Source of the DNA: Heterotrichella gracilis
Taxonomy: Eukaryota; Sar; Xanthophyceae; Tribonematales; Xanthonemataceae
NCBI GenBank assembly: GCA_032358255.1
Contig: JAULBX010014092.1
Location: 32,751-96,750 of the forward strand
Direction: 5' to 3'
Length of the DNA stretch: 64,000 nt
Made by a program: the position numbers and the translations under genes. Numbering within the stretch: position 1 is the first letter of the stretch; each line of letters opens with the position of its first letter. Positions 1,066 through 63,619 of the stretch are shown here, one piece after another. The notes under the pieces are model-generated. The model worked only from the letters and a program-made list of their open reading frames with translations. It had not been told where the DNA came from and did no database searches.

Positions 1066-2686
1066 ATGAGCCCTGGGGCTGGCCCAAGCAACGCTCCCAT
1101 GGTTCCATCCAACGGCGTGAACGGGGTGTCGACCCTGTGGTTTTCCCCGTCAGCCGTGCTCCTCCACCTCATCCACACGCTCAGCAACAGCGCCCTGCTC
1201 CCATGGCGGATCTTCCTCTACACCATGTCGCTTTTCAGTGCGTTCCTGCTCTCTGCCCTCTCAGCCATCGGAGCTCAGCCTCTGGGATACGTCAGCCAGC
1301 GAAAGGTGGGTGGGTGTGGTGGCTGGGGCAGCGGGATGATTTTGCCAGACCTTTATATGGGCGTTGGGTGCCTGATTGAAGTGGCTTACACTGCGAGCAT
1401 TGGCCTGGGTGTAAGTCCATGAGCTGGCAGATCCACTCACCATGGACACAGTGTCCTTGATTTGACTACTTTCGAAATGCCCTTCTAGCTATTTGGCTGC
1501 ACCCAATTAAACGGGGATGCTGGCTGGCGCAGGTGAGGGAGGTGCAGACTGTGGTGGAGCACATGCACGCCCGGGAGGAAGCATACAGACGGAAGATGAA
1601 GGTATGAAATGCTCCTGCCCAAGTCAAAGGGTTTACTTGGGTTAATTGATGACCTACAAAATGTCTATGATGTGTGCCTAGATTGACAAGGTATTGTAGG
1701 TGGAACAGCAGATGTGTCCCCAGGTTGTGCTTGGTACCATAGCTGAAACAACATATTGACGTGCAGGAGCTGCTGAATGAAGCTGAAGCCATAGACAAAG
1801 ACAAGAAGCGGGCGCTGCTCAAGATACACAAGGTGCGTGCAGCAAGCACCACCCTCCCTGCACACCACCCCACACACCCGGCATGCGCACCCTGCTGCCA
1901 CACCACACCACAACCGTAGCCGCGCCGCGTCGCCCACCAGCGCCCCCCTTGCACCGCAGTTGCGTGGCGAGATCGGCGAGATGCGCCACCAGATGGAGGA
2001 GGTGTCGATGGAGGCGCACCTGCACAACAGGCGGATGGACACTGAGGACCTGCAGCTGCGGGAGCCCACCTCCCGCCTGGGGATGCACCTGAGCATGGTG
2101 GTGCTGGCGTTGGCGGTGTGGTTCTTCATGCAGCAGGAGCAGCCCAGCTTGCACAGGAAGCTGGTGTTCACCGTCCTCTCCCCGGTGAGTGTTTTGCAAA
2201 CCCTTCCCAAGGGCTTTGCATGGGAAGCTGGTGCTCACTGTCCTCTCCCCGGTGAGTGTGGTCTGCACGCTGAACATTTGATGGTGCTGTTTCTGGTTTA
2301 TGTTGTGCAAACCCTTCCCGAGGGTTTTGGGCATGGGAAGCTGGTTTTCCCTGTACTCTTCCCAGTAAGCAGAAGTATGTATGTGGAGTAGAAGTCAGGC
2401 ACTGCTGCTGTATTGCCATCTATGGTATCCCTGGTATCCATCTGTTCCAAGAATATCTGGAACTTTGACTACAGCAGCAGACTGAAGCGCCCTTTGCAGC
2501 GATGAGAAAGGTCTTATGGCGCTCCACTCCTGAGTAGTCTTCATAATTTGCTCGCAGGTGGCGTGGATCTACCTTTCAGCTGCCTTGCAACGGCGGGGCA
2601 TGTGGAACCCTTCGATCATTTTCAGCTTGACGTGGTTCTTGGTTGGCTTCATCATCAGCCAATCCATGCTGTCGGTCAGCCTATAG
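1066..2686 (+). CDS. Coiled-coil multi-pass membrane protein, GET1/TMCO1-like topology
   Basis: Five exons, 1066-1305, 1533-1601, 1767-1832, 1960-2184 and 2558-2686, join entirely in phase 0 to give 242 aa ending in TAG. The N-terminal third holds a hydrophobic span around LFSAFLLSALSAIGA. A charged heptad-like stretch over exons 2-4 (REVQTVVEHM, then EIGEMRHQMEEV) follows, then two or three further hydrophobic spans (MVVLALAVWFF, then FSLTWFLVGFII). A membrane span, a cytosolic coiled coil and a membrane pair is the layout of GET1/WRB, the tail-anchored-protein insertase subunit, and of TMCO1/EMC3 relatives. The sequence match to either is weak, so only the topology is claimed. ATG 1066 is the first in frame; ATG 1099 is an alternative. 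The exon 4 donor is followed by two decayed copies of itself. Confidence 0.6.
2157..2369 (+). repeat. Triplicated exon 3' end with splice donor (membrane-protein gene)
   Basis: The last ~28 bases of exon 4 plus the donor (2157-2190, CTCTCCCCGGTGAGTG) recur at 2222-2258 and, more decayed, at 2335-2369 (CTCTTCCCAGTAAG). Between the copies lies a repeated linker containing AAACCCTTCCC. Copy 2 keeps an intact GTGAGTG donor but in another phase. The exon frame stays open through all three copies until about 2391. Confidence 0.85.
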
Positions 2687-4918: not shown

Positions 4919-7900
4919 GCCCTGGGCCAGCCTGAAGCTCCCAGAGGCAGTCAAGTGGACCCAGTGGTCCCAAGACAGCAACAACTACCAGGCTTTCGTG
5001 GTGCAGAATGTGGCCGGCAGGCCAATCACTGTGAGGTTTCAGCAGCCCAGCTCCCCTCACTTCCTGCTGTGCTGCCCCCCCTCGGTGAAGCTGGTGCCTG
5101 GAAAGTCACGCACGCTCAAGGTGAGTCATGTTGCAGAGTGCGGTATCCCCACAGCTCCTGCTGTGCTGCCCTCCCGCAGTGAAAGCTGCTGCCTGGCAAA
5201 TCGCGGACGCTGAAGGAGAGTTCTTTCAAATATTGTGTTACATTCCTTTGTAATCGTCTCCTTCCTCCAAGATCCAAAGATTCAAAAAGCATGTAAAAAT
5301 TAGTAGAGGGGTTCAAGTTTGTGTGGTATTGGGTTGAGCGTAGATAGCAAGGGGGTGAAGGAAACAAACACGACCCCGCAGGTGCTTTTTACCCCAGAGG
5401 AAGAGGTGGATTGCACAGCCAAGCTGCAGCTCTTCACAGACCAAAACGAAGCCTTCAGCATTGCCCTCCATGCCGTTGCGCCAAAACCCTCCCTCAGGGT
5501 TCCCACCCAACTCACTTTCGGTCCGGCAACAGCGCTCAACCACACAGCGCGTGTGCCCTTCACCATCTCCAACACTGGGAACAAGGCAGTGCAGGTCCAC
5601 CTCGAAACCTTGGCTCCTTTCAGCATCAACCCAGCAGCTGCCACCATCAACCCTGCCGAGGAGGTGCACTTTGGGGCGGAGTTTGTCCCTGAAGGGGAGG
5701 GCGAGTGCTTGGCAAAGCTGTACGTGGTGGAGGACACGGGGAGGTCGCATGTGGTGGAGGTAGGTCCCTGGCTATTTAAGGTTCAGGGTTTAGGGTTGAG
5801 GACATGGGAAGGTCCCGGGTGGTGGAGGTAGGTCCCTTGTATTGACACATACTGAACATGCCTGCCCGGCTTTTGCATTTGGCTGCTCCTGATGCAAGGT
5901 GTAGCCGGCACCGCATGTGACGTTACTTCTGTTCGAACAGAACTGGTGGCCAAATATGCATTGATGGTCAGACACATATTCATTATTTGTTCACTTATGT
6001 TTAAAAGTTTCTAATTTTCATGCAGCTGTCAGGCATGGGAGTGGCAGCAGGCTTTGAGCTGGACACCAATGAGCTCGAGTTTGGTTCTGTGTATGTGGGC
6101 CACCAGGCAACCCGAAGGGTTCGGATCAGAAGCACCTGCAGCACACCGATTGACCTCACAGTGCATCCCCAACAGCAGCCAATCACAGGCAGATTTGATG
6201 TGCGCCTGGCAAAGTGAGTAAAACACAGCATGCTTACTTGGGAACGCTGTGGTTGGGTTGAGTCAGTGATTGGCTCAAATACACCCTGCATGGATGCCCC
6301 TACTGCGCACAATGCAGGCTATACACAGAGCATGCAAGCCACTAGTAGGGTGTTGGGAATGCACCCCAATGGCAGTGGCTGGCAGCAGCTGTGTCCCAAC
6401 GCGTTCACATGCCAAAATACCACCCCTTGCAGGTCCACGATAGGCCCAGGCGAGTCCTCCTATGCTCTAGTCACTTGTGAGCCATGCGTGGGGGGGTCAA
6501 CTGCTCAGGAGTTTAGCATCACCTGCCAAGGAGGACAGGTGCGCCTAGCAGCACGATTACCGTATCAGGGTTTAGGATCCTATCACTGCTAATCTTGAGC
6601 AAGTGTGGCTTGCTTACTCATATGCCCTATCATCTCTTTCAAATGACTCTGGTCCCATATCTATGTGTGCAACACATATTGCTGGCCAGGTTTTCTAAGC
6701 AATTCCTGTCAGTACTCCGGACTGTCCGCCGTGATGCCAATTGCAATGCTGTATGTCACAGTCACAGCAGCATACATTGATTGACTGCACGTCAGTGTCA
6801 TAATCAGCTTCTGATATTTAAAAACACACATGATTACTGTGGATTTACAGGTGACCCAGCGTCTGCGATGCCATGTGACTGGCAAGTGTCCAGGCTTGAC
6901 CCTCAGCAGCACAGCACTCACCTTTGGGTCCTGCCAGCTGGGCAGCCAGTCATGCCCCCACAGTGTCACCTTGACCAACCTGTGCGATGTGCCGGCATAC
7001 TACCAGCTGCAGGGAGGCAGCCCCGTGTTTGTGTTTGACAGGTAAGGACACGAGAGGGTTTAGGGTCAGGGTTTTGTTCACTAGCTAGTGCACTAGGATT
7101 AGGGTCACTAAGGGTAAGGTCGCTAGGCTTAGGGTCACTAGGGTGGATACACGGACCAGGCTGGCTCTCAAATCTGGCATTTTCCTCATCCTGTGCCCTC
7201 ATTCTTGAAATGAGAGGGTGCTTACTTGTTTTGGTGTGGTTTGCCAGGCGGGAGGGCAGCATAGCACGGGGCGGCAGTGAGCGCATCAGCATCAGCTTCA
7301 ACCCCAGGCATGCCCTGGCCTTCCGAGAGGAGGTGCAGTGCTTGGTAGAGGTGAGGGTGTGGCTGCCGTTCATGGTGCATGCAGGGTGCACCTGAGCGCA
7401 CTTGCCATTAGCTTAATAGTACCGCAGGTCCAATATGATGCATGACCCATTTACAAAAATAATGTAATAACAGCCAAAATAATTATCATGTTGTTATTAA
7501 CGTGCAAGATGTAGTTCCTAATTGTGGCTTTGACCCTTGGCAGGGCTCAACAGACCCTCCTCTGAACTTGTCACTGGAGGGTGCGGCTTTTGACGCCAAT
7601 GAGCAAAGCTCAGGGTCAGGCTGCCAGGATGGCGTTCCTGCGCTGGCTCACCCGCAGTTGCAGGGCCCTGTCGTGGAAGTGAGGCCCCAGAGGCTGTGCT
7701 TTGGGGAGGCCCTTGTGGCCCCAGTGACACGGGTGGTCAGCGTACATAACACAACAGGCAAGGCTGAGTCTGTAAAAATGCGGCGTGCGATCCGTTCTGG
7801 CATCTGTTCATGCCGCAGTATGTGCTGTGCGCACGTGGTACTGAACCCACATACAGCCTGCAATTTGCGTACATGGCTTGCCCAGAACCAAATGGCAAAT

Positions 7901-44736: not shown

Positions 44737-45972
44737 GGAGTGCGTCTCAGTATGGGTAGATAACAGTAGTGGCAGCCTGGTGTGATGAGGTGATGGGGGT
44801 GCAGTTGGCGATTGGGAAGACGCGGGCATGGTCTACATAGGGTTGACTTTTTCTGCCAGGGCTTTATATGTTTCTCCCCTTTGCTTCATTTTGCATCCCT
44901 CTCTGAGGGTGAGGTGGCTTAGTTGTTAAGTTATGGGTGCGTATCGTCAGGAGGGAGGAAAAGTCTCGATTATTGTAGGTCTAACCATGTGCGGTTGAGC
45001 ACAGGAATGCGCAGATCCCCTGTATGCACCCTGTTAGAGCAGTGCATGCACACGAAGTGGGGAGACTGGTGTAGTGTTGTGACGGGTGTGCAGGTGGCGA
45101 GTGGAAAATCATGCGTATGTGGGCGTGGAAGCGGTGTTTTGTACCAAAAGGTGTGCCAAGGCAAAGGACAAGACAGTGGATGACATGCGTGCGTGCGCGC
45201 AAGGTGTGGGGCTGGGCTGAGTTGCCCGCATGTTTCCTATCATGCGGCGCAGCGCCCACAGGGGTTGGGGGTCTGTGATGTGGGGTGCAGGGGCCAGGAG
45301 GGTGCGTGCAGGTTATGCTGTGGGGAAGTCACCGTTGGATGCGTGTAGGTGTAGCCTAAGGAGCAGTGGGGATAGGCAGATGCAGCACGAGTTGAGAGGA
45401 AAATGTACAGGCGGTATCAGTAGGTATAGGTTGTGAGCAGAACCAGTTGATGACGGGCTACCAGGGCAAGGGCAAGATTGATCAAAGCATCATATGTAGC
45501 TTGAGGCGTGCCAACTTTTGAAGCGTGGATATTGAATAGGCTGCTGCAGCAGTGTGGTGCTGGTCATCTTTGAATTTCTTCCGATGGCACCTGCATTGAT
45601 TCTTGCACCATGATCCTTTCAAATTCAGGACCCATCGAATGTTTTAATCAGCGGATTCCGAAGGGCACCCTCAATGCCAGTATTTGATATTTTGTCTTGT
45701 AATATTAAACACAGGGCATTGTACCTTGACGCCGCTTGGGCTTGAAGCATGTAAGTTACGCGTTAAATCTGTTGTACCTAGCTAGCTAAGCCTTAAGCCA
45801 TACCGGGCAAGGGCAACATAGTCTATTGTTGAAAACAATCCACTGGAGACCCGCACCAAGTCAGTTATTGGCCCACATCGCCCAGCATGATGCCACTGGC
45901 CAAGTATAGGATGATCTTGGACCATGGACAGTCCATGGATTTTGAAGTTACTTCAAAATCCATATCCTAAGC
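44737..45972. other. Convergent intergenic region
   Basis: 1.2 kb between the LARP6 stop (+) and the end of the F-box/LRR pseudogene (-). GTGATGAGGTG / GTGTTGTGACG related blocks near 44760 and 45075 hint at an old local duplication. No exon was found. Confidence 0.45.
45935..45963. repeat. 29-bp palindrome at the 3' end of the F-box/LRR pseudogene
   Basis: ATGGATTTTGAAGT and ACTTCAAAATCCAT flank a single T: a near-perfect palindrome 10 bp beyond the minus-strand stop codon. It is preceded by GGACCATGGACAGTCC. It may form a 3'-UTR hairpin. Confidence 0.8.
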
Positions 45973-48665
45973 TTACTCATATCCATCCGGTACTCCACAT
46001 GGGGCAGGCCCTGGGTAATAATCATAATAATTATGAACAGGCACCCCCCACGGCGCCTCATCTCTAGCTGCCGCTAACCCCGGTGCCGCCAACCTCACCA
46101 GCCAACTCAGCTTGGCAGCCAGCTCAGTGGGAGGGCACCACAACGCCTCATACGCAGCGGCATCAAATGAGTGCACCCACAAGCCTAGCATCTTCTTGCT
46201 GCCTTGATAGCGCGAGCAGTAACAATTGGAGTGCTGCCTTGGTGCCAGCAGAGCTGGCAATATTGCAGCAGACATATTGACTCGTTCTGGGCACCCCTCG
46301 AATCGCCCCCACAGCCACAGTAACATGTCCACCACGCCCTGCCAATCCTCCATGTTCAGCTCCCCAAGAGCATTACCATCAATGTAGCAGTAGCTGGCAT
46401 CACCAGCAAAGGCCTCAGCAAAGACCACCCCCACCGTCACGCCAGAGTCCTCTTCCTCAATACAGAGCGCCGGGTCCGCATCCTGCCCAACTGGGCCCTT
46501 GACGATCAGGCGCTGCAGGGCAGTGAGGGTGGTGATGGAATCTGGAAGATTGATGGTGGCTTGTTCATTAACGCCACAGTCTATAAGGTACGCTGTGTGT
46601 CCCAAGACTAGCATAGTGAGGCACGTGAGCGCGGTGATCCCAGCTGCACTGCGTCATCAGCATTGACCAACCACTGCTCCAGCTCAACCAGGCCTGTCAA
46701 CGCAGCGACGCCATCTGGCATCAGCGGCGGGCTGGCAATGACGGCAGCATCCACAAAACCATCATCATATTCATCCCCGCCCTCATCATACTGAAACCAC
46801 TGCCTCAAACACAATGCTGTAAGGCCGGACAACCGGCTCAGTGCTGCCAAGCTGGCTGCGCTGTCAACATCTGGCCTGACACCCTCCAATGTGAGGGTGG
46901 AGAGGTTGGGAAGAGTGAAGATGAGGGCGTCTACCGAGGGAAGCACCAGGGAAAATTTGTTATCGCAGCCGCTGCCAAAGGTCAGGCTGCGAATGGAGGT
47001 GCTGGCGCCAACAGGCAGCGGGGATGGGCCAATCCTGTTGTCGATTTTTCCAAACTTCATCAGCCGCAAGCCAAGTAGCATTTGCAGGCAGTTCAGCTTG
47101 GGGAAGCATGTGGCATCAGACGGGGAGGGCAGGTGTGTCAGGTGCAGGCGCTTCAGCAGGGTGAGGGCTTGCAGGTGGTTGGACACCCGCTGCAAATCTG
47201 CAGCCTGGGCTGTCAGGTTGAGGAAGGGAAGCATGATGCCGTCCTCGTCGCTGGGGAGGAACTCTGGGACACTGAGCTTCAGGCCTTGCAGGGACTTGAG
47301 CGCCGCCAAGTGCAACACCGCTGCATCCAGCTGGTTCATCGCTGCATCCCATGGCACGTCAGCTTCATGGGCAACCCTGATGTGCACCTTGAGCTGCGTC
47401 AGGTGCACGCATGGCGCCAGGGCAGCCAGCGCACTGGGCGCCACGCTGTCGAGGTGCAGCCGGTGCAGCATGGAGCCGCAGGTGAAGATGGAGGCGATTG
47501 GCCAGCTGTGCCCGTTGGTGGCAGTGGGGTGATGGAGTGATAGTAAATTCAGACTGTATTAACATTAGGTGTTCACCCCCTAAAGCCTAACGAGTCTACG
47601 CCCTCCAGATGTCGTACTGAAGGCATGCGCGGAAGCAGCCAGCGCACCAGGAGGGCGTAGTAGGTGTCTGGTGAGCGCGACATGCGAATGTAGACTGTGC
47701 ATCCACTCCCAATCTTGGAGGAAGTGGCCTCCGGGTCCACAGGATTGGAGCAAGGTCTTCCCAGAAAACCCTTGTGAGCTTCGTGTGTGTGTGTCACCTG
47801 TGCACGGGGCGTATAAGATGACAATGACTAGATGAAGGGAGTATCGCGTTATGCCATGACATTGTCAGTCATCAAGCAGCTGAGTAGTACAATTTTAGGA
47901 ATTGCTATAATTAGTGCGTCATGCATTTTTGTCATTAATGCAATATTGCAAGGACGGTGTCAATCAGCCAGCAGAGGCAAAGGATATGACAAAAGTGTCA
48001 TAAGGCAAAACCCTACAGAACCCTTGTCAGGACATCTATGACACTTGGCCCAATTCAATGGGTAAAAACACATTTGCGGCCACAAGTGAGACGGCAACAA
48101 ACCCATAAAAGTGTGCATTTACGCGCATCAGGGTGGAAGTAATCATTTACTGTATGCTCTGGTGCATCTTCAGAAAAGCACCACATGCTAGGTCACGAGA
48201 AAGTGCTTTGCAGTGGAAGACATGTGCATGGAGCCAATTACTGCGTGATACTGAAAGGTACAGGTATGGAGCCTCAAGTAAAGTCCTCTCTCAGTGGTAG
48301 TGAGGATTAATTACCAGGCTGGCAACTATCACCAATGTATTGGTCATCTAAGCCGTTTAAAAAAGGTTGACTGACAAGAGTGCAAACAGACGACACATGA
48401 CATGGCAGTACATTCTGTGCATTCAGGAAGGTGTGCCCTTGCACGAGCCTGTTCTCCACACACTAGGGCTGCAGCTCACCTGCATGTCCTCCCACATGGC
48501 TGAGGGGCCCTGGCTGAGGCGGTGCCATGCCTTGCACACCAGAGGGAGAGTCCGAACTCTGTCTCCCAGTCCTGTACGGCCCAGTATGGACTGGAGGACG
48601 TCAGGTGGCAGCGACTGGATGGTTGTGGTGGCCCCAGGGGCTTCCAGCTGGGATGGATCAGCCAT
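45973..48665 (-). pseudogene. F-box/LRR gene copy A, disrupted
   Basis: Exon 1 (48665-48480, 62 codons) encodes an F-box (LPPDVLQSILGRTGLGDRVR, then LPLVCKAWHRLS) and splices in phase 0 to a long LRR exon starting at 47797. Compared with copy B, two lesions break it. An extra ~50 bp around 47540-47600 brings TGA and TAA stops after MPSVRHLEG. A net 7-base loss near 46635 shifts the frame, so the LRR part is split into 47471-46608 and 46614-45973. The 3' part, however, preserves a C-terminal frame (APWGVPVHN to DGYE) that copy B has lost. An unrecognised intron over the first lesion cannot be fully excluded, but no phase-correct GT-AG pair was found. F-box/LRR proteins are substrate receptors of SCF ubiquitin ligases. 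Confidence 0.78.
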
Positions 48666-50179
48666 GCTGCCCCTGCACATGCAAGAGAATCTTGAAACAA
48701 CATGCAAGGGGACCGTGGGTGTATCAGTCACTGGCATGGTGATGGGTGCAATTGGTCCAGGAGTGACCTGTAATGTGGAATGCATTATAGGTGGCTTTTA
48801 GAACCTGTGTCAAGTTGTAAACCTTTCAACTGGCCAGTGACTTTACAAAGAAGCTGCCTACCACACAAAACACTGGCCGGCCTGGACTGCAGCCCTTGTG
48901 TAACGCCACCACGTTCAACCTTTTTTGGAAGGCATCCAAAGCAGGTTACCTGGCTACCTTCTCGGGCTAGGCAAGGAGCTATCCAATATGGCTGCCGACT
49001 GCCAACTAGACTTCTAACGAAGATATCTTGTGGCCTCGTGTAAAAGAGCCCTGTCTGTGATGGACCTTGGAGACCGGGTTTGGAAAAAATGCATACGTTG
49101 GCAACGCAGACCGTTCTGTCCGACAAGAGTAGAGCTATCAAGTTGGGGTAGACCCTCTTATCTGCTTGAAATTTCAAGTCGGAGACTCACCACTCTTGAC
49201 TCAGAGGACTTCTGAGTTATTAGGGTTCCATAATGGTACCGGGTGTTCCACCCTATCAGGGTTCCAAGTTGAAAAGCAATCACTGCATTGTAATTAGGGG
49301 AGAGTATTCATTTTAAATTAATCTTCCAGTCCTGCTTTTATACCTTGCAAACAAGCAGTGCCAGGACACTGGCAGTTAGCGCAAGGCACAGGGCTGATTC
49401 GGTCAAGCTGGCGGGGCAGTGGTAACACACGCTGTCCAGTGTAGAGGTCACAGCATGCGGAGTGCCTGGCAGTAAGCGTACCAAGCAGCTACTGAAACAG
49501 ACAAGCAAGTTTGTCAAAAAAACAGCCACATTGCAAGCCAAATCACAAACAACACTCCCTTATTCAATTCTCTATCACATTTTACCTTGATGGTCATCAC
49601 TGCCACCCTAATCAAAACCCTAAATGTTCAATACATCCACAAGCAGTGCCGCATCAAGGGCTGACTGCTGATGTAGCTCACCTTGTCACAAAGAAATGCA
49701 GCTTTTCTTTTAGGTACATATTTCGAAAAATATGACAAAGTCTATCAATCAAACATAAATGACGCACAAAACAGTACTAGCATTTCAGGCATTGCCACCC
49801 AGTGTCAGCAAATCACTTTCTTGAAGCTCTAAAGCAAGAACTACACAAGTGTAATGCTGAAACTCTAAAGGTGTAGTTATCTGACTTCACCCCTGTGCTT
49901 GAGAGGGGCCTTGCATGCGCAAGCGCACTAATGAAGTTGCTGCTTAAAGTGCTGTACGCCAAATCTAATTGAAGGCAAATGAACTTTGGATGCTAGCCAA
50001 AAAATCTCTCTTGTACATGTACATCTGTACATGAAAATACCTTCCTGCCACGTGGTGCCCAATACGTCTTGAAGGCAAGCGCAAAATGACCCACATTGAC
50101 AATGCATGTGGCAATAAAACATGATCAAATTGTGAAACAGACAGTTTGTAGCCTACCCTATGATCAGGATTCATTGGCC
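48666..50179. other. Spacer between the two F-box/LRR copies
   Basis: 1.5 kb with the promoter of copy A and the 3' end of copy B. A 130-codon minus frame at 48785-49177 has no recognisable feature. AAACCCTAAATG occurs near 49615. Confidence 0.45.
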
Positions 50180-52709
50180 TTATTTTGATCTCATTAGGAT
50201 AAGTGGAACTGCTATTCCTGAAGGGTGAGGAAAGCGTCCCATCGTAAGCTCACGCCGCATCCAAGAATATGCACTGCAAGCACCACCGAGTTGCATATCT
50301 AAGCATATCCATGTAGCGGCCCTGGTTGCCCCAAACCAGCATAAAATGGATCTTCTGGCTCCACCACACCCCATGGCGCACCCTGCCACCAATCCCAGCG
50401 CCGCCACCTTCACCACACAGCTTAACTTGGCAGCCAGCTCACCGGGGGGGCACCACAATTTCTCATGAGTGATGGCATCGAACGAGTGGACCCAGAAACC
50501 TCCCATCTCAGGCTCATTGTTACCGTAGCAGCACTTGCACCAACCACAGCGCTGGCAGTAGTGCATGCCGCCCTCGCATTCCTCCAGCAGCTCAGCCGGC
50601 GTGCTGACCCTTGGTGCGCACCCCTCCAGCCGCTCCCACAGCCACAGCAGCGGATCCGTAACGCCCTGCCAGTCACCCGTGTCAAGCCGTCCATCAATGT
50701 AGCAGTAGGAGTCGGGGCAGGTAGGGTCTGGTGGCTGACTGACGACTGCTCCCACTGTCAAATGAGAGCTCTCTATTTTGATGGAGAGAGCTGTGTCTCC
50801 ATCCCTGTCTGGTGGGCCCTTGACAACCAAGCGCTGCAGCGCAGTGAGAGAGGTGATGCTTTCTGGGAGATTCACTGTGCCTTTTTCTTTCCAGCATGTG
50901 TGAGCATACATGACATTGGGGACATCCGCTATGTATCCCAAGACTAGCAAAGTGAAGCGCGTAAGCGCAAGGATGTCGCTCCCCAGCTCCACTGTATCAA
51001 GTCCCCACCCTGCCCTCCAGAGTTCCAGCTCCACCAGGCCTGACAATGCGGCAACACCATCTGGCATCAGGGGCAAAGAAAACGCGTCCTCCATAAAATC
51101 CTCATCATCATGATCCTCGTCATGCATTGTCTGCCCGACGCACAATGACGTGAGGCCAGACAAGCGACTCAATGCTGCAAAGCTGGCTGCGCTGTCAACA
51201 TCTGGCCTGACATTCTCCAGTGTCAGCATGGAGAGCTTGGGAAGAGTGGAGATGAGCGCATTTGCCATGGGAAGCGCCATTTCAAAATTGTGCTGGCAGC
51301 TGGTTCCAAATGTCAGGCTGCGAATGGAGGTGTTGGCGCCGATCGGTAGCGGGGATGGGCCATGCTCGTTGTTTTTCTTGGCAACCTTTGTCAACCGCAA
51401 GCCAAGTAGAATTTGCAGGAATTGCAGGTTGGAAAAGCATGTGACATCAGAAGGGGAGGGCAGGTGCGTCATGTGGAGGCGCTCCAGCAGCGTGAGGGCT
51501 TGCAGACGGTTGGACGCCCGCTGTAGATCTGCAGCCTGTGCTGTCAGATCGGGAAATGGGCCGCCTTGAACGCTGGGGAGGAATTCTGGGATACTGAGCT
51601 CCAAGCTGCCCAGGGATGTGTGCGCCGCCAGGTGCAACATCGCTGCATCCAGCTGACGCACTGCAGCATCCCATGCCGTGTCAAGCTCATTGGCGACCCT
51701 GATGTGTACCTCCAGCTGCGTCAGGTGCACGCATGCCGCCAGAGCAGTCACCACATCAGGCGCCACGCTGCCAAGGTGCAGCTGACGCAGCGTAGAGCCG
51801 TACGCAAAGATGGAGGAAATTGGATAGCTGTGCCCGTTGGTGGCAGTGGGGTGGGAGGAGAGCATGCGTGGGAGCCATAGCTGCTGTACAGAAGGCATGC
51901 GGGGGAGCAGCCAGCTGGCAAGGGAGGTGTAGTAGGTGTCTGGTGAGCGGGACATGCGAATGTAGACTGCGCATCCACTCCCAAATTTAGAGGTAGGGCT
52001 TAGCAGGAAACCCCTGTGAGCTTTATGTACTTCGATCACCTGTACAGGAGGGGTATAAGATTATCACCGCGTGCACAGGCTGTTGAACAATGCTGTAAGG
52101 GACAGCCTATGCACCAGAGATCTGGGAGGACATGTATGTCCACCCATATGATTCCTTAGTGCCACACTAGATGCATGTTTTTCAAACAGCACAATGTGCT
52201 GGTGCACAGCAACGTTCCTGAGGCACATGCACCGCAAGGCTTGCAGTGCACGAGGAGCCCCTCACTCACTGATCAGAAGGGTGCGCAAGTATGAAACTCA
52301 GGGAGGTCATCATGGTGAACTCATTCGAAGTGCATTATTGGTACTCGTTACTCTCAGAGTAACAAGGCTTCACTCATGTGGCTATAGCCTTGACGTTGCA
52401 GCTGCCAGTGTAATTGATGGCATCTTATTGAACAGACATGATATGACAGCACATTGCTATCATATGATATGCCCATTGGGTGCTATTGCACGAGCCTGTC
52501 CTCCACATCAGGATTCCCCTCACCTGCACGTCCTCCCACATGGCTGAGGGGCCTAGGCTGACGGAGTGCCAGGCTTTGCACACCAGAGGGAGACACCGGA
52601 CCCTGTGCCCCAGGTCTGAAAGACCCAATATGGTCTGTAGCACGTCAGATGGCAGCGCATAGATGGTTGTGGTGGCCCCAGGGGCTTCCAGCTTAGGTGT
52701 ATCAGCCAT
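50180..52709 (-). CDS. F-box/LRR protein, copy B (C-terminally frameshifted)
   Basis: Two exons, 52709-52524 and 52039-50180, join in phase 0 to 681 aa. Exon 1 is the F-box (LPSDVLQTILGLSDLGHRVR, then LPLVCKAWHSVS), which would dock on SKP1 in an SCF ligase. Exon 2 carries irregular leucine-rich repeats (LTQLEVHIRV, LTLLERLHMTHLPS, LSRLSGLTSLCV, LTALQRLVVKGP) and a WVHSFDAITHEKLWCPPGEL block shared with copy A. Near 50380-50388 it lacks a net 8 bases present in copy A. The reading therefore leaves the shared frame and runs through an ancestral TAG at 50299-50301 to a new stop at 50180, adding about 65 unrelated residues. The alternative frame here encodes APWGVVEPEDPFYAG, clearly homologous to copy A. 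The F-box and LRRs remain intact, so function is possible. Confidence 0.85.
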
Positions 52710-54973
52710 GTGGACCACAAGGTGGAGTGCAGCCCAGCCCAGTGTGTTGTCCAGTACGATACCCTGTGGTGAAAGCAGAATGGGTTTAGGACAGCTCCGA
52801 GCGTCGGCGAAGTATTGAGATTTGAACACGGATAAGGGCAAATCCACTGTTCTATTTTGAAACGGAGCGAAGTCCAACTGTTAGCCCTTGGTGATGTGCC
52901 TAAGAGGACTTACCATGCTTGTGATCATGATGTATAATAAGCTCGTAGGTACTCGCTTCTTTTATAGAGGGAAGGAATGATACAGAAGTGCTTGTGAATA
53001 TTATACAGCAGTTAGGGGTTTGATAAGGTAGTATATTAGTAGACTGAAATAGAGGAAGTTACCAAGGCACCATATTCTTATCTGTGCGAATCTACTTATG
53101 CTTTCGCTGTGTGCTCTTGACGTCAGTTGTTGGGTACGGTTTCTACCCAACACTCCCACACGTTTGTAACCAATACTTTCTAGTCTTGGACTACGTGTGG
53201 TATTCCAAAACCCCAGCCTGTTATATGACTGGTGCCGTATCATAGGATCATCCCCATCATGGGTTTGGGAGCAACTGTGAAAGAAGGCCTGTCTACACCA
53301 TGACTCATAGGCAGAGCAAGACCCACTGTCGAGTTTCAAAGCATCCCTACTGCCAGGGGCTGGGGAATGACCAGGCAGGTGTTACAGTAACTTACCTTAG
53401 TAGCTACTGTCTCAGACAGCCTCCAAGACTACGAGCGTTACTGTGCGTGAGCGTTACTGTGCGTGAGCACACCATTACTGCGTTAAACTTTATAAACGAG
53501 CCCAAGTTTGAAAAACGTGTTATTTCCAATGACTACTGTTCGCTGAGCTGCAGAGTTTCATGCATCCATATAGGAGTCGTTGCAGACGTTTCTTGCCCAG
53601 TCCTGTCAAAATCGGTTACATGTTCATGTCCTTGCCCTAATTTAGGATTCTCAGATCATCGCCACAATGGTGTCATCAATTGTACCTGGTCAGTACAGTA
53701 ACTGTCAATACATGGAGACCACTATTACCTGGAGGGAATGCATACAGTGTGCATATAGTAGCATGTTCAGGTCAGAGCTTGGACGGCTGTGTAGTGGAGT
53801 TTGTGACCGCTAACCACTGATCAGTTCATGAACAGTTACGACGGACAGTAACGATTCACCATAACTATTATAGCGTTTTCTCCATCCGATTCGGCAACCT
53901 GGGCAGTGATTGCCACAGTTTGAATGACAGATGGGAACGTTTAGGTACAGCACACAGCGTCACACAGAGTGTGCTCCAGCTGCTGGTTCACCCAATATAA
54001 TAATTATATGCGTATTGTGCGAGTGGCCGAAAGCCTCGTGTTTAACTTAGAGTCTTAGTCTGACTAAGTTACAGCCAATCAGTCGCAATCATTGTGGTAG
54101 ATATGTTACAGTACCATGGATGGCAAAATTAAGTATGGTTTGTCAATATATTCTGTTTTCCTCAGATTGAATGTGATGCATCAAGGCCACAGCGGCTGCT
54201 ATAGCCTCTTATGCCATCCTAATATGTAATACTTGCTTACTATCCATAGAACCATAATGGCATGCAAGTGCAAATACATGCCGAGCAACTGCAGTGCATT
54301 GACTGGCATTTTGCATTGAAGGGATTAGCAGTATCAGGCAATGAATGTCAAACAAGCGCAGGTCAATTCCAGAGGAAAAGTACCAACAGTTGATCTCCTC
54401 CCCCCCCTTTCCCTAAAGATACCAGGATTATTGGCAATAGGCGTAAGATGTGCCAACGTTTGCCAACAGTGGCATCCGTTTGTGGCTGTGGAACAATACA
54501 AATATCAATAAAAGATTTGTTTTTGCTGCGTGCTATTAGGCTTATTCTCTCCTTGGATGATAAATGTGTGGCTAGCTAGCTCATAATGCCTCGCTCACTC
54601 AGGAGTACCCCGCTCCCCCATGCACCAGCATGATGCACCCGACTACTCTGGCCAAGCATGCGCACCCCACCAACTGCCACCCGCCAAAAAGTGATCCCCA
54701 GAAATTGGTCCATACCACATCCAGGCCTGCTACAATTGGACGATGCTTTATAAGGGCGCCTTGTTGGGCATCACACAGTGTGCATAGTATAATCGCGCGT
54801 ACACAGATGTGTGTCTAAACCCTGGATGAGTGCGCCCACTGCCAAGCCACATTTGGTGCGACAGGTAGGAGGTGTCCGCTCCATGCTGCATATGGCCAGG
54901 CCCAGACTCCGCTGCCACTGTTGCAACCCTACAAAGGGGTTTCGCTGCTGCTGGTGACACCCTACGATAGGGT
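52710..54973. other. Long intergenic region
   Basis: 2.3 kb, AT-richer, between copy B of the F-box/LRR gene and the second hydrolase. No exon chain, tRNA or structured RNA was recognised. A tandem pair GCGTTACTGTGCGTGA lies at about 53436-53466. Confidence 0.5.
53436..53466 (+). repeat. Tandem duplication of a 16-bp unit
   Basis: GCGTTACTGTGCGTGA occurs twice head-to-tail. Confidence 0.85.
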
Positions 54974-57900
54974 TCAGCTGCTGGGCTGAGGGCTGCTGAC
55001 CACATACTGCTTGAGCCACTCATCCAGGGTCTCTGCTACCCTATCCCACCTCGTGTCCTGCACACAACCAGGAGCATGAAAAACGGATAGTAGGGTTGTA
55101 GGGTTTAGGCTTCACATTTGAGGTAGGCCTTTTGTCTTGCCCCAAGTATGACATGCAGGGTAATGAGCAAACAAACAATGTCATACTTGGGGCAAGACAA
55201 TGTCATACATTCAAAGATTATCAAGCAAGAGACCATGTTGGCAAAATACCTCTTTTTCTCCTCAAGGGTTCTCATGGAATCTTATCTCAGGCTTAGGGTT
55301 TTGGTCCTCCACTCACCAGCATGAGGTCATGGGCCACCCCCGGGACAGTCATTGCCTGCACGCCAAACATCTCGGCGGTTGCCTTGACCTGGCAGGGCAT
55401 GATGAGCGCATCATCACCCGCTATCAGGACTGCGATAGGCGGCAGCGCCCCGCTGTCCAGCACAACTGGCTCAACCTGGGACGGCAGCAAACAAGGTTGA
55501 GCCATGGTTGGCGTGAGGGGTCTTTTTGATCCCATTTTTGCCGAGGCGAGGTTTGGAATGGCCGATTGTCTGGATTCAAGCTGAGATTTCAACCATCGAA
55601 GGCAACGCACCAGCAGTTGTAATCTTTGCCGTTTCTTTTCATCTACCTTTCGATATAGTATGAAACATGATTTACCATTCTACATATGGGCTATGGCATG
55701 AATTATATCGTATGCTACCCAACGCTGTTCAAAATCTAAAAAAATGACCATGACCAGCTCCAGCTGCATGAGGTGCTGGAATATCTCATATCACACAAAT
55801 TTCATTACCCATCATTTGCCCACAGTAAGTGTCTGGTATGCTACCCACCTTCTTCACATCAGGGAAGGAGACCATCATGACCCGCTCCTGCTGCGTGAGG
55901 TGCTTGTGGTAGCGCGCAAATTGGTGGTCCGGCAGGTCATGCGAGAACAGCATTTCGCGGGTGACAGCGCCGTGCTGGATGGCGCTGGAGGACATCCACC
56001 TGCAAACCACGTGGCAAGGGAGGCTTTAGGATCCAGATTTCTAAATTTGGGGTTTGCGCTCTTCATGGCAGCCCGAACAGGTATTCCTAACCAGCAGATG
56101 CTGACACTGATATGAGCATTTATCAATACTTCAGCACCCGTGCCAAAGCAATACCCTACACGCTAGCAAAAGCATTTCCCCCGGCGCCCCCACCCGTTCC
56201 CCCTTTCACCCGCACACGTACCATACCACCTTGAGCGAGTGGAAGAAGCCTCGCTGCTCCCTGAAGTACTGCATGGATGGCATGACAGCCGTCAGGGCTG
56301 CAGAGGCCATGAGCGAGGCGCCCGCAAGGGGGGGTAGTTGGCGCCCGCCGGACAGCTCCAGGAGGTATCTGTAACAAGGGTTTTAAGGTTGACATTTAGG
56401 CTTTTGGTGCTTGTGAGTTTAGAGTTTGGGGCCATATGACTTTGCAATAAATGGAGGCATGGAGACGAGTGGTGGGTGCGTGGCCCCACATGGAGAAAGT
56501 CAAGGATGAAGCAGCACCCTTCCCCCAAAGACGTACAAACAAGCAGCTTTTTACCCCTCCCTACCGTTGCAACACAATGCCCCCCAGCGAGTGCGCCACC
56601 ACTACCGGCGGGCAGCCCAGCTCCCGAATGAAGTGCGCCAGGTCATCAATGTTGTCGTCAAGCGACAGGTGCGCCTTGCCCTCGCTGTCGCTGCTGCCAT
56701 GTGATCGCAGGCTGATGGCGTAGGCATCAAACCCCTTGCTGGCAAAGAAGGGGAGGAAATGCTCCTGCAGGGTGGCAGGGTGGCAGTTGATGCTTGCCCA
56801 TGATCTCCCCCCAAACTGCGGCGGGCTGTTTCACCACTGCTGTGTTCTTGTGTGGGGGTTGATGTCTGCATGATTCCATGGTATCGACCCTCATGCGTAC
56901 AGAGTGATTGATTTTGGTGTGTCATGCCCCAGACCTGTGTCAATAAATGCCTCTCCGATTGACCATCAGGGTTAAGGTACCACATGATATAAAAGGGCAC
57001 ACCCACAAAGAGCCACACACCCATTCCTCCATGGGATTCCCATCCCACAAGATGCGCGCTTTTCTTCACCCCCAAGCTGCGCTTTACATCCCAGCACTGG
57101 CCCCCACCTGGCTGCATGGCCCCATGAGGAACTCAAAGAGAGGCAGATCTGTGCACAGCGGCTGTGCGGCACCACCGCTGGAACACAACCCTAGAAAGCC
57201 AACAGTCTCCACCACCTGCTCTTCCCACCCTTGCATCACTGCAGCAAAGGTGGTTGTGCGCAAACGCCCGTGACTAATTGGTTCACCACCCCCATGCATT
57301 ACCCCTCACCTCGTAGCACCAGGCTGCGTGCATTGCCCCGAGGAGGAACACCAGGGGAGCTGCGTGGCCAGGGGTTCGGTTCCACCACCGCTGGAACACA
57401 ATCCTAGAAAGCAAACATCACCGCCACCTGCTCGCCCTCAATTTGCATCATTGCAGCAGGTGCAACCACCTTGTGCTTGAATGAACCACCCACACCCAAT
57501 ACCCAATACATCCCCCTCACCTCGTAGCACCAGGCTGCGTGCATGGCCCCATGGAGGAACACCAGGGGAGGCAGCTGGGTGGCTGAAGCCTGTGAAGAGC
57601 TGCCTGGTCGGTGGAGTACCTCCAGGTGGAGGCCACAGGGCAGCGGGTGGCGGATGGATAGGCAGCCGGTGGGTAGCTCGTTCACCTGCGCAAGGCAGGT
57701 GGGGATTCGAAAGGTTTTTTTTCGTGCACCTCCTGCTCTGGTGATCCCGCTGCGCCCCATAGTTGAAACTTCTTCTTCCCATTTGCGAAGGGTTCCACTT
57801 CCAATCAGGCACTTTAGGTAGGGTCTTGTTCGTTGTAACCTAGTAGGTGCAGTGAGCAAACCCTAGGAGAGGGTTTGATGTCAGGTGGTGGGGATTTGAT

Positions 57901-59797: not shown

Positions 59798-59984
59798 ACC
59801 CTAAACCCTAAACTAGGATTGTCCCCAACCATCCGCAGCTGGCTCTGAGCTGCCTAGCCCACCCAACGTAGGGTTACAATTGTCTGTATAGTAAATGTGC
59901 CCACAATTGCCCTTCTCTCCTGCAACTGCAGCTGGAGTCTATTCGAGTGCCGCTGGGCCACCCTTGAGCCCTAAACCCTAAACC
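59798..59984 (+). repeat. Two interstitial CCCTAAA units
   Basis: AACCCTAAACCCTAAACT near 59798 and GCCCTAAACCCTAAACCT near 59966. Each has two exact units and sits at the edge of the local duplication downstream of cullin-4. Confidence 0.9.
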
Positions 59985-60303
59985 TCCTGCGCTGTGCTGA
60001 CCACCACCATGCTGCGACTAGCAGTATTAGCCAGGGGTGTGGGTGCCGCGCTCGCTAGTTTTAGCTGCGGCTGCTCCCCCTGCTTGTTGACCACCACCAT
60101 GGAGCGGTTGGCAGGGGCTAGCCATCCCCCTGCCCCCTCCTTACCACGCCCTGATGCCTTGGCCTAGGCATGGGTGGGTGCTGTGCTCGAGGTGCTGGCT
60201 GTGGTGGCACTCCCCCTGCTGCGCTGACCAGATGTGCCCACAAACGCCCTTCTCTCCCGCAATTGCAGCTGGAGTCTACGAGTGCCGCTGGGCCACCACC
60301 TGC
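59898..60303. repeat. Direct repeat about 335 bp apart downstream of cullin-4
   Basis: About 70 bp, GTGCCCACAA then GCCCTTCTCTCC, CTGCAGCTGGAGTCT or TTGCAGCTGGAGTCT, GAGTGCCGCTGGGCCACC, present at 59898 and 60233. A smaller TTGACCACCACCATG / CTGACCACCACCATG pair lies between. Confidence 0.85.
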
Positions 60304-60675
60304 CCCAACCATTCAACTTCCTGCGCTGTGCAAGCCACCCCTAAGCTGGCAGCACTATGCTGCGGCTGGCAGTGCTTAGAGGCCCCTGCACCTGCTCCGC
60401 TGCCCCCGAAACCCCCCACCCCGCCACCAGACAGTACCCTCATGCCCTGACCTAGGCAAGGGTGTGTGGGAGTGCACTACTGTGCTTGCTGGTCCGGTGC
60501 GTCTGCTCCCAAAGGTGTGCCGACTGGCACATGCTGCCAGCCCCAGCGCAGAGCATGCTCCAGACAACATGGCCCCCCATCTCCCACCCCTCTTATACCA
60601 CCCCTTCACCACTGCTAGCGTCCCGATTGTGTGCATGGGAGGGCGCGGGTGGTCCAAGCTTCCTTTATACTCCTC

Positions 60676-60790
60676 TCAGGCCAGGTAGTGGTACACCTGT
60701 GCAGGCGTCAGCCAGGGATTAGGGCCTGCCTTTCAGGTTTAAAATTTAGGGGAAGGCGAGGGCAAGGTAGTGATACCACCAAGGATGCCC
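60676..60790 (-). repeat. Decoy copy of the 21-bp terminal cullin-4 exon
   Basis: The final exon (minus GTGTACCACTACCTGGCCTG) is echoed about 90 bp nearer the preceding exon at 60766-60786 (minus GTATCACTACCTTGCCCT). The copy lacks an AG acceptor in the right phase and would read through to a later stop. Confidence 0.7.
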
Positions 60791-63619
60791 TCCCCCCCTC
60801 CCCCCTAGCAAATTCGAAATGGTTACTGCAGGCCAGAGGTGATATGGAACGCCATGGAATAGCTGATGTGAAGCTTTTTCCCATCCACCCCCCTCACCTG
60901 CGAGTTCTTCTCGTCCCGCTCCAGGTACTCCCTCTCGATGAGCGACTCGATGCGCTTCTTGAGGTCCTGGGCGCGCATGGGGAACTTGAGGTGCAGCAGC
61001 AGCTCGGTGACCAGCAGCTTGTGGCTCAGCACCTTGCGCGTCTTCATGATGCGCACGATGGCGGCGTCGATCTGGTACTGCCGGTCTTGCAGGACCTGGG
61101 AATCGGGGGCAAGGGTAGGAATCGTGTGCATGCTTATGGCTCAGTAATGTGCGCGTTTTCATGATGTGCACGATGGAGGCATTGTGGTAGTGCCGGTCTT
61201 GCAGGACCTGCAAGGAGTGGGGCGGAGCGTGGGAGTCAATTCAACGCTTGTGGCTCAGTGATGTGCGCATCATGAAGACGCACATGACGAAGCATTGATC
61301 TGGTTCTGGCGGAGTGGAACATCAGTGACCAAAATGCCAATCTTGTGGCTGGCATGTTGTGCGCGTCATGCATGGCGGCATCAGCCTCACCACCCACCCC
61401 CAACTTCACCCACACAGCCACGCACCTGGTCGTTTGTCTTTGTGTTCTCCTCCACAGTCTCCTTCAGCTGCACAGTGTTGATGCGGATGCGGTACAGCGG
61501 CGCAGTGAAGCCGTGGTTGAAAGAAAACACGTCCCCGTCCTCCACATCCTTCCCCTTGGGCTCCTTGAGCAGCACGCGCGTCTTGCCGCAGGCCAGGGAC
61601 TGGAGCGTGCGCCGCAGCTCCTTATCCTCGATGCCTGATGGAGGGCGCAAAAATTGTCAATGCTGCCTGGCAAGGAGCGTGTTTATAACCAAAATGAGTC
61701 GGTTTTTAAAAGCGCAATTGCGCCAGTTGGGCTGTTTTCTTTGTTGCGTGATTCGTTTTTGGTCACCTCGACTCAAGGCTTGAGCAGCCCTACCCTCATC
61801 CCCACCCACCTGTTGCCTGCTTGACCTCTGTAAATGTCATGGTGTCTGTGTCGTTGAACAGCGCCAGCACCACCGCTTGGAACAGGGACACAGACAGCTC
61901 CTTGGCGCCCTTGGCAAAGTTGGCCTGCACGACAAAAAATATCCATTGTTTAGCCGCAGGTACAGAGAATAGCACTTGCCAACAATGCATCAGTAGATAA
62001 TAGATACAGTGCCTGGTAGAAATGGTTCCTACCAGTATGCAAATCAGTGATGAAATCAGTGTAATCAGAGCAGAGACACATGAACATCTATTTGCCCTTA
62101 CTTCACCAGCGCACCTGTTAACAGACAGGCTGCAATGTTTCATTTAGATGCCGCATGGACACACATGAACAAAAATATGCACAAATGCAAGGAACATTTC
62201 CAGAATATTGCATGCAATCCCCTCCTGTCCTCCCTGCCGCTACAAAAAAAGAATGGGAGCAAGCCAAAGTCAAACACCCCAATCCAAAAATGCCTCACCT
62301 TCATGACGCAGCTGCCCAGCCCGTTGTACCACACCAGCCGCCGCCCGCTGTGCTTTGACAGGTAAAAGTCCTTGAAGATCTGCTGGTACTGGTTCAGCTC
62401 CTGGGGCATGTTGGCCTCAACGATGGGGTAGGTGGGCCAGTAGCCAGAGGTCAACACATGCACGTTCATGTCAACACCCTGCAGTGGAGTGGGGCAGAAA
62501 CCTCGTGTCAATGATAACAATAAGCCCTTGATGGGCACAGCGGTTTCATTGTTCTGCAGTTGGGCTCATTTTGGCCTTTGCATTATTATTACAAGATTAC
62601 AAGATCTCCCTTTCCCAACAAGTTCTACGTCAGAATTCAGAAATTTTGAGCAATATTTTTACAATTTGTCATAGAGCTTTGATTCAGTTTGTACAATGAA
62701 AACACGCAATATACTACTTATATTACCTGCGGTGCCGTCTGCTTGACCATCGTCGACTGCTTGAAGCTAGCCATGACATCCCGCGACAGGTCAATGTCCT
62801 TGAACATGCCCTCAAGCTTGTTTGTGAACTGGCTCCCGCACTCCGCCTTGAGCTTGGTGATCATGGAGCGCTCCGCGTCGATGGAAGCGCTCTTGCCCAG
62901 CAGTAGGCGCTTGGCAAGGTCCTTTTTGTAGAAGGCCTCAAACACGTCCTTGCCCTGGATGTACCTGGAGGGGCAGGCTAGGGTTTAGGGCTTATTAGGG
63001 GTTATGCATAAGAGGGGTGGAGGGAAGCCTTGTACATTTCCTTTGCCCTGGATGTTCCTGAAAGGGGCATGTCAGGGTTAAGATTTAGAATTTAGGTTTT
63101 AGAGTTTGAGCTCTGCACCTTGGGAACCATTCTGTGGCAAAGTATGCTTATGGTAAGACCATTTACGAAATCGCTGTTTGGAGTTATGATTACCTGCACC
63201 TGAACACTGTGACCCTTTGTCAGCGTGGCCTCCAACTCCGTACGGTTTGGGGCCTAAGAATTTGGGTTTAGGGTTAAGGTCTAACATACTCTAGGGTAAT
63301 TAGAAACACTAAGCTCCACATTAATGAGGCTTACCTGAACAGTATGAGCGCCTTGTCCAGGGTGGCCTCCAGCTCCTCCTCCGTCTGCCCCTTGTTCCCC
63401 GCGCGCAGCTTGCTGTCCACAAACTTGGCAATCAGCTCCGCGGGCTTGTTCTGGCGCTGGTTGATGAAGTACTCAAACCCGTCCTTGAGCGCATTGCCAA
63501 AGGCCTCATTGCGCGCAAAGGCCTCGTGCAGCACGGTGTCCATGCGGGTCTTCATGCCCAGCAGCAGCTCCACCATGTCGGGGTCCTTTTCTTCATCCAA
63601 AATGAGCTCCCCGCCCGTC
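60676..63619 (-). CDS. CUL4: Cullin-4, C-terminal part (5' end outside the window)
   Basis: Seven exons, 63619-63335, 62964-62727, 62478-62299, 61924-61810, 61634-61426, 61095-60898 and 60696-60676, join in frame to 414 aa and a TGA. The reading begins in the cullin-repeat/4HB region ([19 protein letters not shown]) and passes [20 protein letters not shown]. It continues through the alpha/beta RBX1-binding part ([11 protein letters not shown]) and ends in the winged-helix neddylation domain with the NEDD8 lysine context [14 protein letters not shown]-type ([14 protein letters not shown]). The tail is [16 protein letters not shown] then VYHYLA. This tail and TRKVLSH are CUL4 rather than CUL1 or CUL3. 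CUL4 scaffolds CRL4 ligases with DDB1-DCAF receptors and RBX1 in DNA repair, replication licensing and light signalling. The final exon is only 21 bp. Edges of four exons are duplicated in introns. Confidence 0.96.
61018..61384 (-). repeat. Three decayed copies of the acceptor end of cullin-4 exon 6
   Basis: The true exon edge 61018-61098 (plus-strand CTTGTGGCTCAGC, CTTCATGATGCGCACGATGG, CCGGTCTTGCAGGACCTG) recurs at 61132-61210 with the same CCGGTCTTGCAGGACCTG and a minus-strand CAG acceptor. More decayed copies follow at 61247-61311 and 61341-61384. Divergence grows with distance from the exon. Confidence 0.88.
62943..63065 (-). repeat. Duplicated acceptor end of cullin-4 exon 2 of this part
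   Basis: Plus-strand CCTTGCCCTGGATGTACCTG at 62948-62967 recurs as CTTTGCCCTGGATGTTCCTG at 63041-63060. The linker contains CTAGGGTTTAGGGCTTATTA. The copy keeps a minus-strand CAG acceptor. Confidence 0.85.
63190..63385 (-). repeat. Duplicated donor end of the first cullin-4 exon in view
   Basis: Plus-strand TTACCTGAACAGTATGAGCG and GTGGCCTCCAGCTCC at 63331-63374 recur at 63190-63240 (TTACCTGCACCTGAACACTGTGAC, GTGGCCTCCAACTCC). The linker has GGGTTTAGGGTTAAGG. Confidence 0.85.

Follow-up and report, generated by a model that had tools for sequence, protein, structure and literature searches.

The 64-kb window (the whole stretch of DNA that we analysed) contains modelled genes with matches to CFAP65/HYDIN-like, SMC, La-domain, alpha/beta hydrolase and CUL4 proteins, and self-comparison of its sequence identified 14 local direct-repeat families among the best 20 of 21 pair rows with scores of at least 40. 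Exon edges host 12 of the 14, eight on the donor side and four on the acceptor side. The copies are direct, adjacent and tandem, with units of 67-213 bp. The families and one marginal pair are as follows.

2149-2369, plus strand, family A: end of exon 1843-2184 with its donor; copy at 2216-2259, third copy within 2301-2369; gene-finder model.
5052-5221, plus strand, family B: end of CFAP65/HYDIN-like exon 4938-5120 with its donor; copy at 5146-5221.
5726-5837, plus strand, family B2: end of CFAP65/HYDIN-like exon 5352-5759 with its donor and ~16 nt of intron; copy at 5794-5837.
24422-24651, plus strand, family C: end of SMC exon 24328-24467 with its donor; three tandem units, telomere-like DNA after each.
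25023-25212, plus strand, family Cacc: start of SMC exon 25182-25403 and its acceptor; upstream copy at 25023-25061.
40955-41234, plus strand, family D: La-domain exon 41195-41407, from the intron just 5' through the acceptor into the exon start; copied twice in the upstream intron.
42758-43039, plus strand, family Lrp2: end of exon 42559-42840 with its donor; copy at 42906-43039; gene-finder model; low complexity in part.
44771-45107, no strand, family I (44771/45060): weak duplication, 48 bp at 77%, outside modelled exons.
55749-55904, minus strand, family H: donor-side part of alpha/beta hydrolase exon 55849-55999; copy downstream in the intron.
57113-57574, minus strand, family E: end of alpha/beta hydrolase exon 57521-57685 with ~130-140 nt of intron; positions 57170-57359 form a tandem copy and 57113-57146 a further fragment.
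59895-60348, minus strand (CUL4's strand, for display only), family G (59895/60232): outside modelled exons, beyond the CUL4 stop.
60676-60790, minus strand, marginal: start of the last CUL4 exon and an intronic 16-nt near-match; score 22, under threshold.
61017-61384, minus strand, family F1: start of CUL4 exon 60898-61095 and its acceptor; copied twice in the upstream intron, with more decay in the distant copy.
62950-63082, minus strand, family F2: start of CUL4 exon 62727-62964 and its acceptor; a single upstream copy, telomere-like DNA in both units.
63198-63376, minus strand, family F3: end of CUL4 exon 63335-63619 with its donor; one copy, in F2's intron, with a telomere tract between copies.

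Rows at the threshold score of at least 40 were merged into families by hand, with the pair 57113/57540 placed in family E, and the poly-Q repeat at 36905-36999 was excluded as a microsatellite. None of six simulated order-2 windows held any pair at this score, and chance or low complexity was rejected as the source of the 14 families; assembly error is unlikely, with exon and copy diverging by 5-28% over the exon part. At the same level we recovered 11 of the 12 intervals listed in a preliminary description, and its placement of copies inside introns on the donor or acceptor side was borne out. The remaining interval, 60676-60790, matches at 14 of 16 nt and exceeds shuffles of its own intron (P = 0.003), but falls below the window-wide threshold. 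Family H (55749-55777/55876-55904), absent from that description, has a best pair that begins 27 nt inside the exon from the donor.

Exon edges were taken from a gene finder blind to repeats, and homology matches of the joined exons run across eight of the 12 edges: 61095, 62964 and 63335 are crossed by a CUL4 match (six joined exons, E = 3.7e-164), 41195 by a La domain match, 57521 and 55849 by an alpha/beta hydrolase match, 25182 by an SMC match (E = 2.4e-9) and, more weakly, 24467 likewise. Edges 5120 and 5759 belong to exons of the CFAP65/HYDIN-like gene; none of its listed domain matches spans either edge, and the gene finder is the sole support for 2184 and 42840. Gene models were unedited in the pair scan against simulated windows. 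Predicted micro-exons at 25031-25072, 25856-25864, 29355-29364, 45865-45895, 54388-54412 and 63988-64000 were deleted before the counts; the first had been predicted on a copy, and its deletion affects family Cacc. Exon 60674-60700 was inserted by hand from the telomere-tract test onward. A middle SMC exon, also inserted by hand, was not part of the all-family tract test; it was set at 24760-24922 in the null model and in the per-family telomere, edge-only tract and 9 versus 9 intron tests, and at 24753-24925 in the edge-versus-centre test, while the sequence suggests 24753-24926.

The copying of exon edges, splice site included, into adjoining introns is confirmed as real in this window. Eight of the 12 edge families, whose units measure 68-213 bp, hold one additional full copy each, and two extra copies are found in the other four (2184, 24467, 41195 and 61095). 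In most families the repeated unit comprises exon, splice site and existing intron, the alignable intron being only 2-6 nt at 63335 and 5120; the copy at 5120 has no donor GT. The decay with distance described previously holds at 2184, where direct reading gives 2 then 6 differences in 28, and at 61095, but not at 24467 or 41195. The CUL4 intron 62965-63334 combines one copy from the donor side and one from the acceptor side with telomere-like tracts.

Telomere-like 7-mers number 166 in the whole window, against ~40 expected, and there are 11 perfect telomere tracts of at least 11 nt, with internal units exceeding chance. Duplication spans contain five of these 11 tracts compared with 0.62 expected (P = 2e-4), and the spans of edge families alone contain four compared with 0.46 (P = 8e-4). 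The preliminary description counted telomere-like units in at least six cases; the link is clear (P ≤ 0.018) in five, at 24467, 41195, 5759, 62964 and 63335, and borderline at 2184 (P ~0.06) and 57521 (P = 0.05-0.10), and the per-family test found none clear at the junctions of 5120 (where no telomere-like unit is seen), 25182, 42840, 61095 and 55849. At 5759 (a 13-nt tract at 5785-5797) and 63335 the tract lies between the copies only, and at 2184 AAACCCT faces AGGGTTT between copies, one perfect and one imperfect. At 24467, 41195 and 62964 the repeated unit itself includes the telomere-like DNA, and that DNA may therefore predate the duplication. The tracts are ~1-3 units long, and the window's tandem-repeat list includes no long telomere array. 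Telomerase-RNA-like flanks around 19 tracts were considered and rejected: 78 11-mers are shared, and all 30 of those listed are telomeric or come from the one SMC array. Eleven viral contigs with four perfect AAACCCT units have no similarity to the window at E = 1e-5 and were set aside; one of them, L008, has phage-like ORFs by eye. No CUL4 relatives were found in viral contigs.

We favor, as the probable explanation, a model in which these families are old short tandem duplications that arose from end-joining with fill-in, sometimes with telomere-type filler, and were tolerated at splice junctions. Staggered breaks or paired nicks would leave overhangs that are filled in before ligation, producing a tandem duplication of the observed unit length, and some events would add TTTAGGG/AAACCCT filler. 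A duplication straddling a splice junction would be nearly neutral because the mRNA does not change: the outer copy would be spliced and the spare copy would turn into intron. A duplication wholly within an exon would usually be lost. Since the exon stays fixed, the spare copy would remain recognisable longer than a pair of drifting intron stretches. From the scars we infer the break and its fill-in, and likewise where the telomere-like units came from. Break repair or slippage with telomerase-type fill-in, as first proposed, fits the anatomy (the unit lengths, the tract enrichment and the two tracts confined between copies), with break repair itself the conjectural part. Counting against the favored model are the five edge families with no clear telomere-like DNA at the junction and the two borderline ones, the three in which the tract lies inside the unit and is perhaps older, and the tract-bearing family 59895/60232, which is off-edge with its 16-nt tract inside one copy.

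Replication slippage or unequal exchange could yield identical arrays, and the families could then be minisatellite-like, with the telomere-like DNA as ordinary intron content. The three-copy arrays at 24467 and 2184, with telomere-like DNA in repeated positions, and the abundance of telomere-like 7-mers across the window speak for this reading, but the single extra full copy in eight edge families, the confinement of the tract between copies at 5759 and 63335 and the tract excess in duplication spans argue against it, and we consider it unlikely, if worth keeping in view.

The comparison of exon edges with exon centres had been set beforehand as a refuting test, and within the window it did not refute the proposal but revealed an edge excess: a local copy is present at 12 of 88 exon edges, whereas the 63 comparisons at exon centres gave none and the 180 noncoding segments gave 5. 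A null model in which duplications fall at random, those inside exons are lost and exon-anchored copies decay more slowly accounts for much of the edge bias. Within modelled genes its predicted edge share is 0.60, compared with 12 of 12 observed; by age band it predicts 0.52-0.71, and 12 of 12 then gives P = 0.0004-0.017, the upper values of both belonging to ages 0.1-0.2. Across the whole window at ages 0.05-0.2, 12 of 14 families lie at edges against a share of 0.24 expected (P = 2.4e-6), although the exon count is a lower bound and doubling the edge share raises P to 0.005; at ages 0.2-0.3 the null edge share is 0.82. Gene spans make up 32% of the window and contain 12 of the 14 families (P = 5e-5), a result that is partly circular because edge families lie in genes by definition. 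Under this model, selection, compact genes and the slower decay of exon-anchored copies explain part of the edge excess. A residual excess lies beyond the null, and neutral tolerance does not fully account for 12 of 12.

A mechanistic origin of the edge excess, with transcription or splicing, for instance, steering breaks or repair to exon-intron borders, could draw on the edge counts in the window and inside modelled genes and on the partly circular concentration in gene spans. However, the shares that the null gives by itself, both inside genes and window-wide at older ages, and the lower-bound exon count weigh against such targeting, which we regard as rather improbable. Equally doubtful is a scenario in which telomerase and C-strand fill-in repair would act on breaks favouring the exon-intron borders of transcribed genes, with introns growing stepwise by copying their own borders.

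The copies drift mostly like noncoding DNA. Between exon and copy, pN is 0.108 and pS 0.278 (overall pN/pS 0.39). Nonsynonymous changes are present in 14 of 15 copies compared, the exception being the far copy at 24467, whose five changes from the exon are all synonymous. Copies of seven of the 12 families have gaps and one copy, the far copy at 41195, has a stop. GT or AG is kept in the nearest copy of 10 of the 12 (alignments read by eye), and at 41195 and 57521 the exon parts have diverged less from their copies than expected of a simple neutral copy. The pooled counts of these alignments include one row (A2) comparing two intron copies. The decoy splice sites suggested earlier find no support in these data: the retained GT or AG and the synonymous far copy might point to retention as decoy or alternative exons or splice sites, but 10 of 12 is near neutral drift at ~13% per site (a hand estimate), the gaps and the stop argue against a function, a pN/pS of ~0.5 would be expected by our own estimate for a free copy beside a constrained exon, and the copies do not keep frame and constraint as mutually exclusive or alternative exon duplications would. 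We find this reading highly improbable.

In the intron-birth model, the intron copy is of the upstream exon and lies next to the acceptor, whereas the copies in this window bring a donor, or what is left of one, on the donor side and an acceptor on the acceptor side. Gain by tandem duplication of an AG/GT site has been proposed for some Drosophila introns (PMC2891723), and tandem duplication around splice motifs links that intron gain and sliding to our families, but in the parts of that paper covered an exonic motif makes a new intron, whereas here the intron pre-existed, and we give this reading the least credence of all. The preliminary description's route to new introns is contradicted for these families: the repeated unit holds the splice site plus intron sequence, so the intron predates the duplication. 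Judged from the sequence, the duplications appear to have lengthened old introns and not to have created new ones. Introns with families are longer (7 versus 9 introns in four genes, P = 0.016; 9 versus 9 with two SMC introns included, P = 0.014).

Tandem sequence duplications in plants reportedly arise from adjacent single-strand breaks, as a 2016 study by Schiml et al. is said to describe. Compared by title alone, that system resembles ours in linking tandem duplications in the plant lineage to paired nicks. In mouse and human cells, fill-in by CST and Pol alpha-primase generates small tandem duplications at 3'-protruding breaks (PMC8355091). The short, direct tandem copies are alike, and the complex also serves telomere maintenance; that work differs in concerning induced breaks in mouse and human cells, and the parts of the paper covered describe no telomere filler or exon-border pattern. 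Interstitial telomeric sequences formed by break repair likewise place short telomeric units in unique DNA, and some telomeric insertions in the horse carry direct target duplications (PMC7215372). In the covered parts of that paper duplication is the only change at 3 of 66 loci, whereas here duplications are the main feature. A literature search by title and abstract opening found no earlier description of the exon-border duplication pattern, which may still be in print.

Because exon-anchored copies survive longer than others, scans for such duplications will overstate edge bias unless this is modelled. The families described here provide a concrete, countable route for intron lengthening, of which the CUL4 intron 62965-63334 is an example. 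They also associate telomere-like filler with small tandem duplications in a natural genome, and a link seen in animal cells would thereby become testable across algal genomes.

The window has a GC content of 52.8% and its genes are multi-exon; 45 introns were predicted by a gene finder that took base-triplet statistics and splice signals as input, with starting splice matrices entered from general knowledge and repeats not used. Its genes include:
4.9-7.4 kb: CFAP65/HYDIN-like gene, domain matches
24.3-25.4 kb: SMC gene, match over joined exons
from 40.5 kb: La/RRM gene, domain match
55.3-57.7 kb, minus strand: alpha/beta hydrolase, domain match
about 60.7-63.6 kb, minus strand: CUL4, six joined exons giving a one-piece alignment to CUL4B

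Domain matches span the exon joints at 41195 (La domain) and at 57521 and 55849 (hydrolase domain), and the SMC match spans joint 25182 well and joint 24467 weakly. Among the matches listed, no CFAP65/HYDIN-type domain crosses joints 5120 and 5759, and the two exons whose ends are 2184 and 42840 come from the gene finder only, without homology support. Between 7375 and 24327 (about 17 kb) lie just two modelled exons and no local duplication reaching threshold; exons were probably missed there by the gene model. By eye, a CCT-like motif can be read at 37.6 kb; taken with the TTTAGGG-type units it suggests, as an inference, that the source is a green alga. Regions 46068-48666 and 50383-52710 are diverged tandem paralogues (about 72-86% identity in pieces by self-comparison), LRR-like by eye.

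Self-comparison for repeat pairs at most 500 bp apart returned 21 rows, 20 of them listed, at the cut-off score of at least 40, against none in six simulated windows. Merged by hand, with one poly-Q repeat left out, these rows form 14 families: 12 at exon edges, named here by edge position (eight donor-side, four acceptor-side), and two away from any modelled exon. The pair touches the exon edge in 11 of the 12, the best pair of 55849 lying 27 nt inside the exon. We then took 50-base exon edges, exon centres (each against each flank) and random noncoding segments and compared each with the adjacent noncoding sequence, to a maximum of 400 bases. Copies at P < 0.01 against shuffles were found for 12/88 edges, 0/63 centre comparisons and 5/180 noncoding segments, one of these five (2219) sitting within family 2184; at score 34 the counts were 9/88, 0/63 and 2/180 (edge versus noncoding, P 0.001). 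Within the window, the check proposed in the preliminary description, exon edges against exon centres, did not refute its claim of recurrent exon-edge duplication.

How much of this excess calls for a special explanation was assessed with a null built from tandem duplications that had the unit lengths seen in the data and random positions across the window. Cases lying within exons, covering an entire exon or reaching into two were removed, and survivors were aged, with exons limited to third-position change, and scored as in the real search (5384 cases). The edge share among detectable duplications was 0.22 overall, 0.18 at ages 0-0.1, 0.30 at ages 0.1-0.2 and 0.82 at ages 0.2-0.3, at which both kinds are seldom detected; it was 0.60 within modelled genes, and also about 0.22 in a variant with fewer indels (1334 cases). 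The observed shares exceed these values, both across the window (12/14 versus 0.24 for ages 0.05-0.2, P 2.4e-6; P 0.005 with the null share doubled) and inside genes (12/12, P 0.0004-0.017 by age band). There is therefore an edge excess, yet much of it is explained by geometry, by selection and by the fact that copies anchored in an exon decay more slowly. Twelve of 14 families also fall in gene spans, 32% of the window (P 5e-5), a value that is partly circular, since edge families are genic by definition and the spans were drawn knowing the duplications.

Across four genes, introns with families are longer than those without (7 versus 9, P 0.016; 9 versus 9, P 0.014, with two SMC introns added), and a single CUL4 intron contains both a donor-side and an acceptor-side family. 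In the alignments, repeated units extend past the splice site into intron sequence, over 128 nt in hydrolase family 57521 and, on the upstream side of the acceptor, over 28-45 nt in La-gene family 41195; alignable intron is only 2-6 nt in 63335 and 5120. The proposal that such duplications are a route to new introns is contradicted in the families where this can be judged, because the unit already includes intron sequence.

Local alignment, which is biased towards similar stretches, shows differences between original and copy at 121/778 aligned exon sites and 99/525 aligned intron sites, gaps extra. Codon comparison of exon and copy gave 48 synonymous and 56 nonsynonymous differences (pS 0.278, pN 0.108); the pN/pS of 0.39 is close to, though below, the roughly 0.5 that we estimate when the copy drifts freely and the exon is constrained. 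All five differences in the far SMC copy (within 24563-24670) are synonymous and none changes the protein, a hint from sequence that this copy may be under constraint. Divergence in families 41195 and 57521 is 5-7% for exon sequence and 18-25% for intron sequence, and this far lower exon divergence is not fully explained by our account.

Telomere-type seven-base words number 166 in the window, versus about 40 expected under a first-order model. Of 11 perfect tracts of at least 11 nt, five lie in duplication spans, which cover 5.7% of the noncoding sequence (0.62 expected, P 2e-4): four in edge families (0.46 expected, P 8e-4) and the fifth in 59895/60232, the non-edge family beyond the CUL4 stop (59895-60348), where a 16-nt tract is present in one copy and absent from the other. 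At 9 nt or more, 7/19 tracts lie in duplication spans, three of the seven from one array. Within gene introns the figure is 6/9 (1.82 expected, P 0.003), again with three from that array; for intronic tracts of at least 7 nt the excess is not significant (8/22, P 0.06). Junction scoring picks out a telomere-like signal at 24467, 41195, 5759, 62964 and 63335, is borderline at 2184 and 57521, and shows nothing clear at 5120, 25182, 42840, 61095 and 55849. Tracts also occur outside duplications, some very near donors (7055, 37835, 41833), but the overall closeness of tracts to exon edges is weak (P 0.03-0.2).

Facing units (AAACCCT ... AGGGTTT) occur at 2309-2327 and 57858-57876 (two matches versus 0.09 expected), and a G-rich GGGTTA/GGGTTG array, telomere-like though of different period, at 41919-41972 in a La-gene intron. 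Viral contigs L001-L011 carry AAACCCT units (at least four), with short local duplications in several; L008, the only one opened, has phage-like ORFs by eye.

Passages of PMC8355091 describe small tandem duplications made at breaks by CST/Pol alpha-primase fill-in in mouse and human cells, and passages of PMC7215372 describe telomeric insertions in the horse that sometimes duplicate their target. We infer the enzyme steps of a comparable repair here. The simplest account of the families is that overhangs at a break would be filled in during repair, yielding the duplication, that telomere-type filler would be added in some of these events, and that the copy may then persist neutrally.
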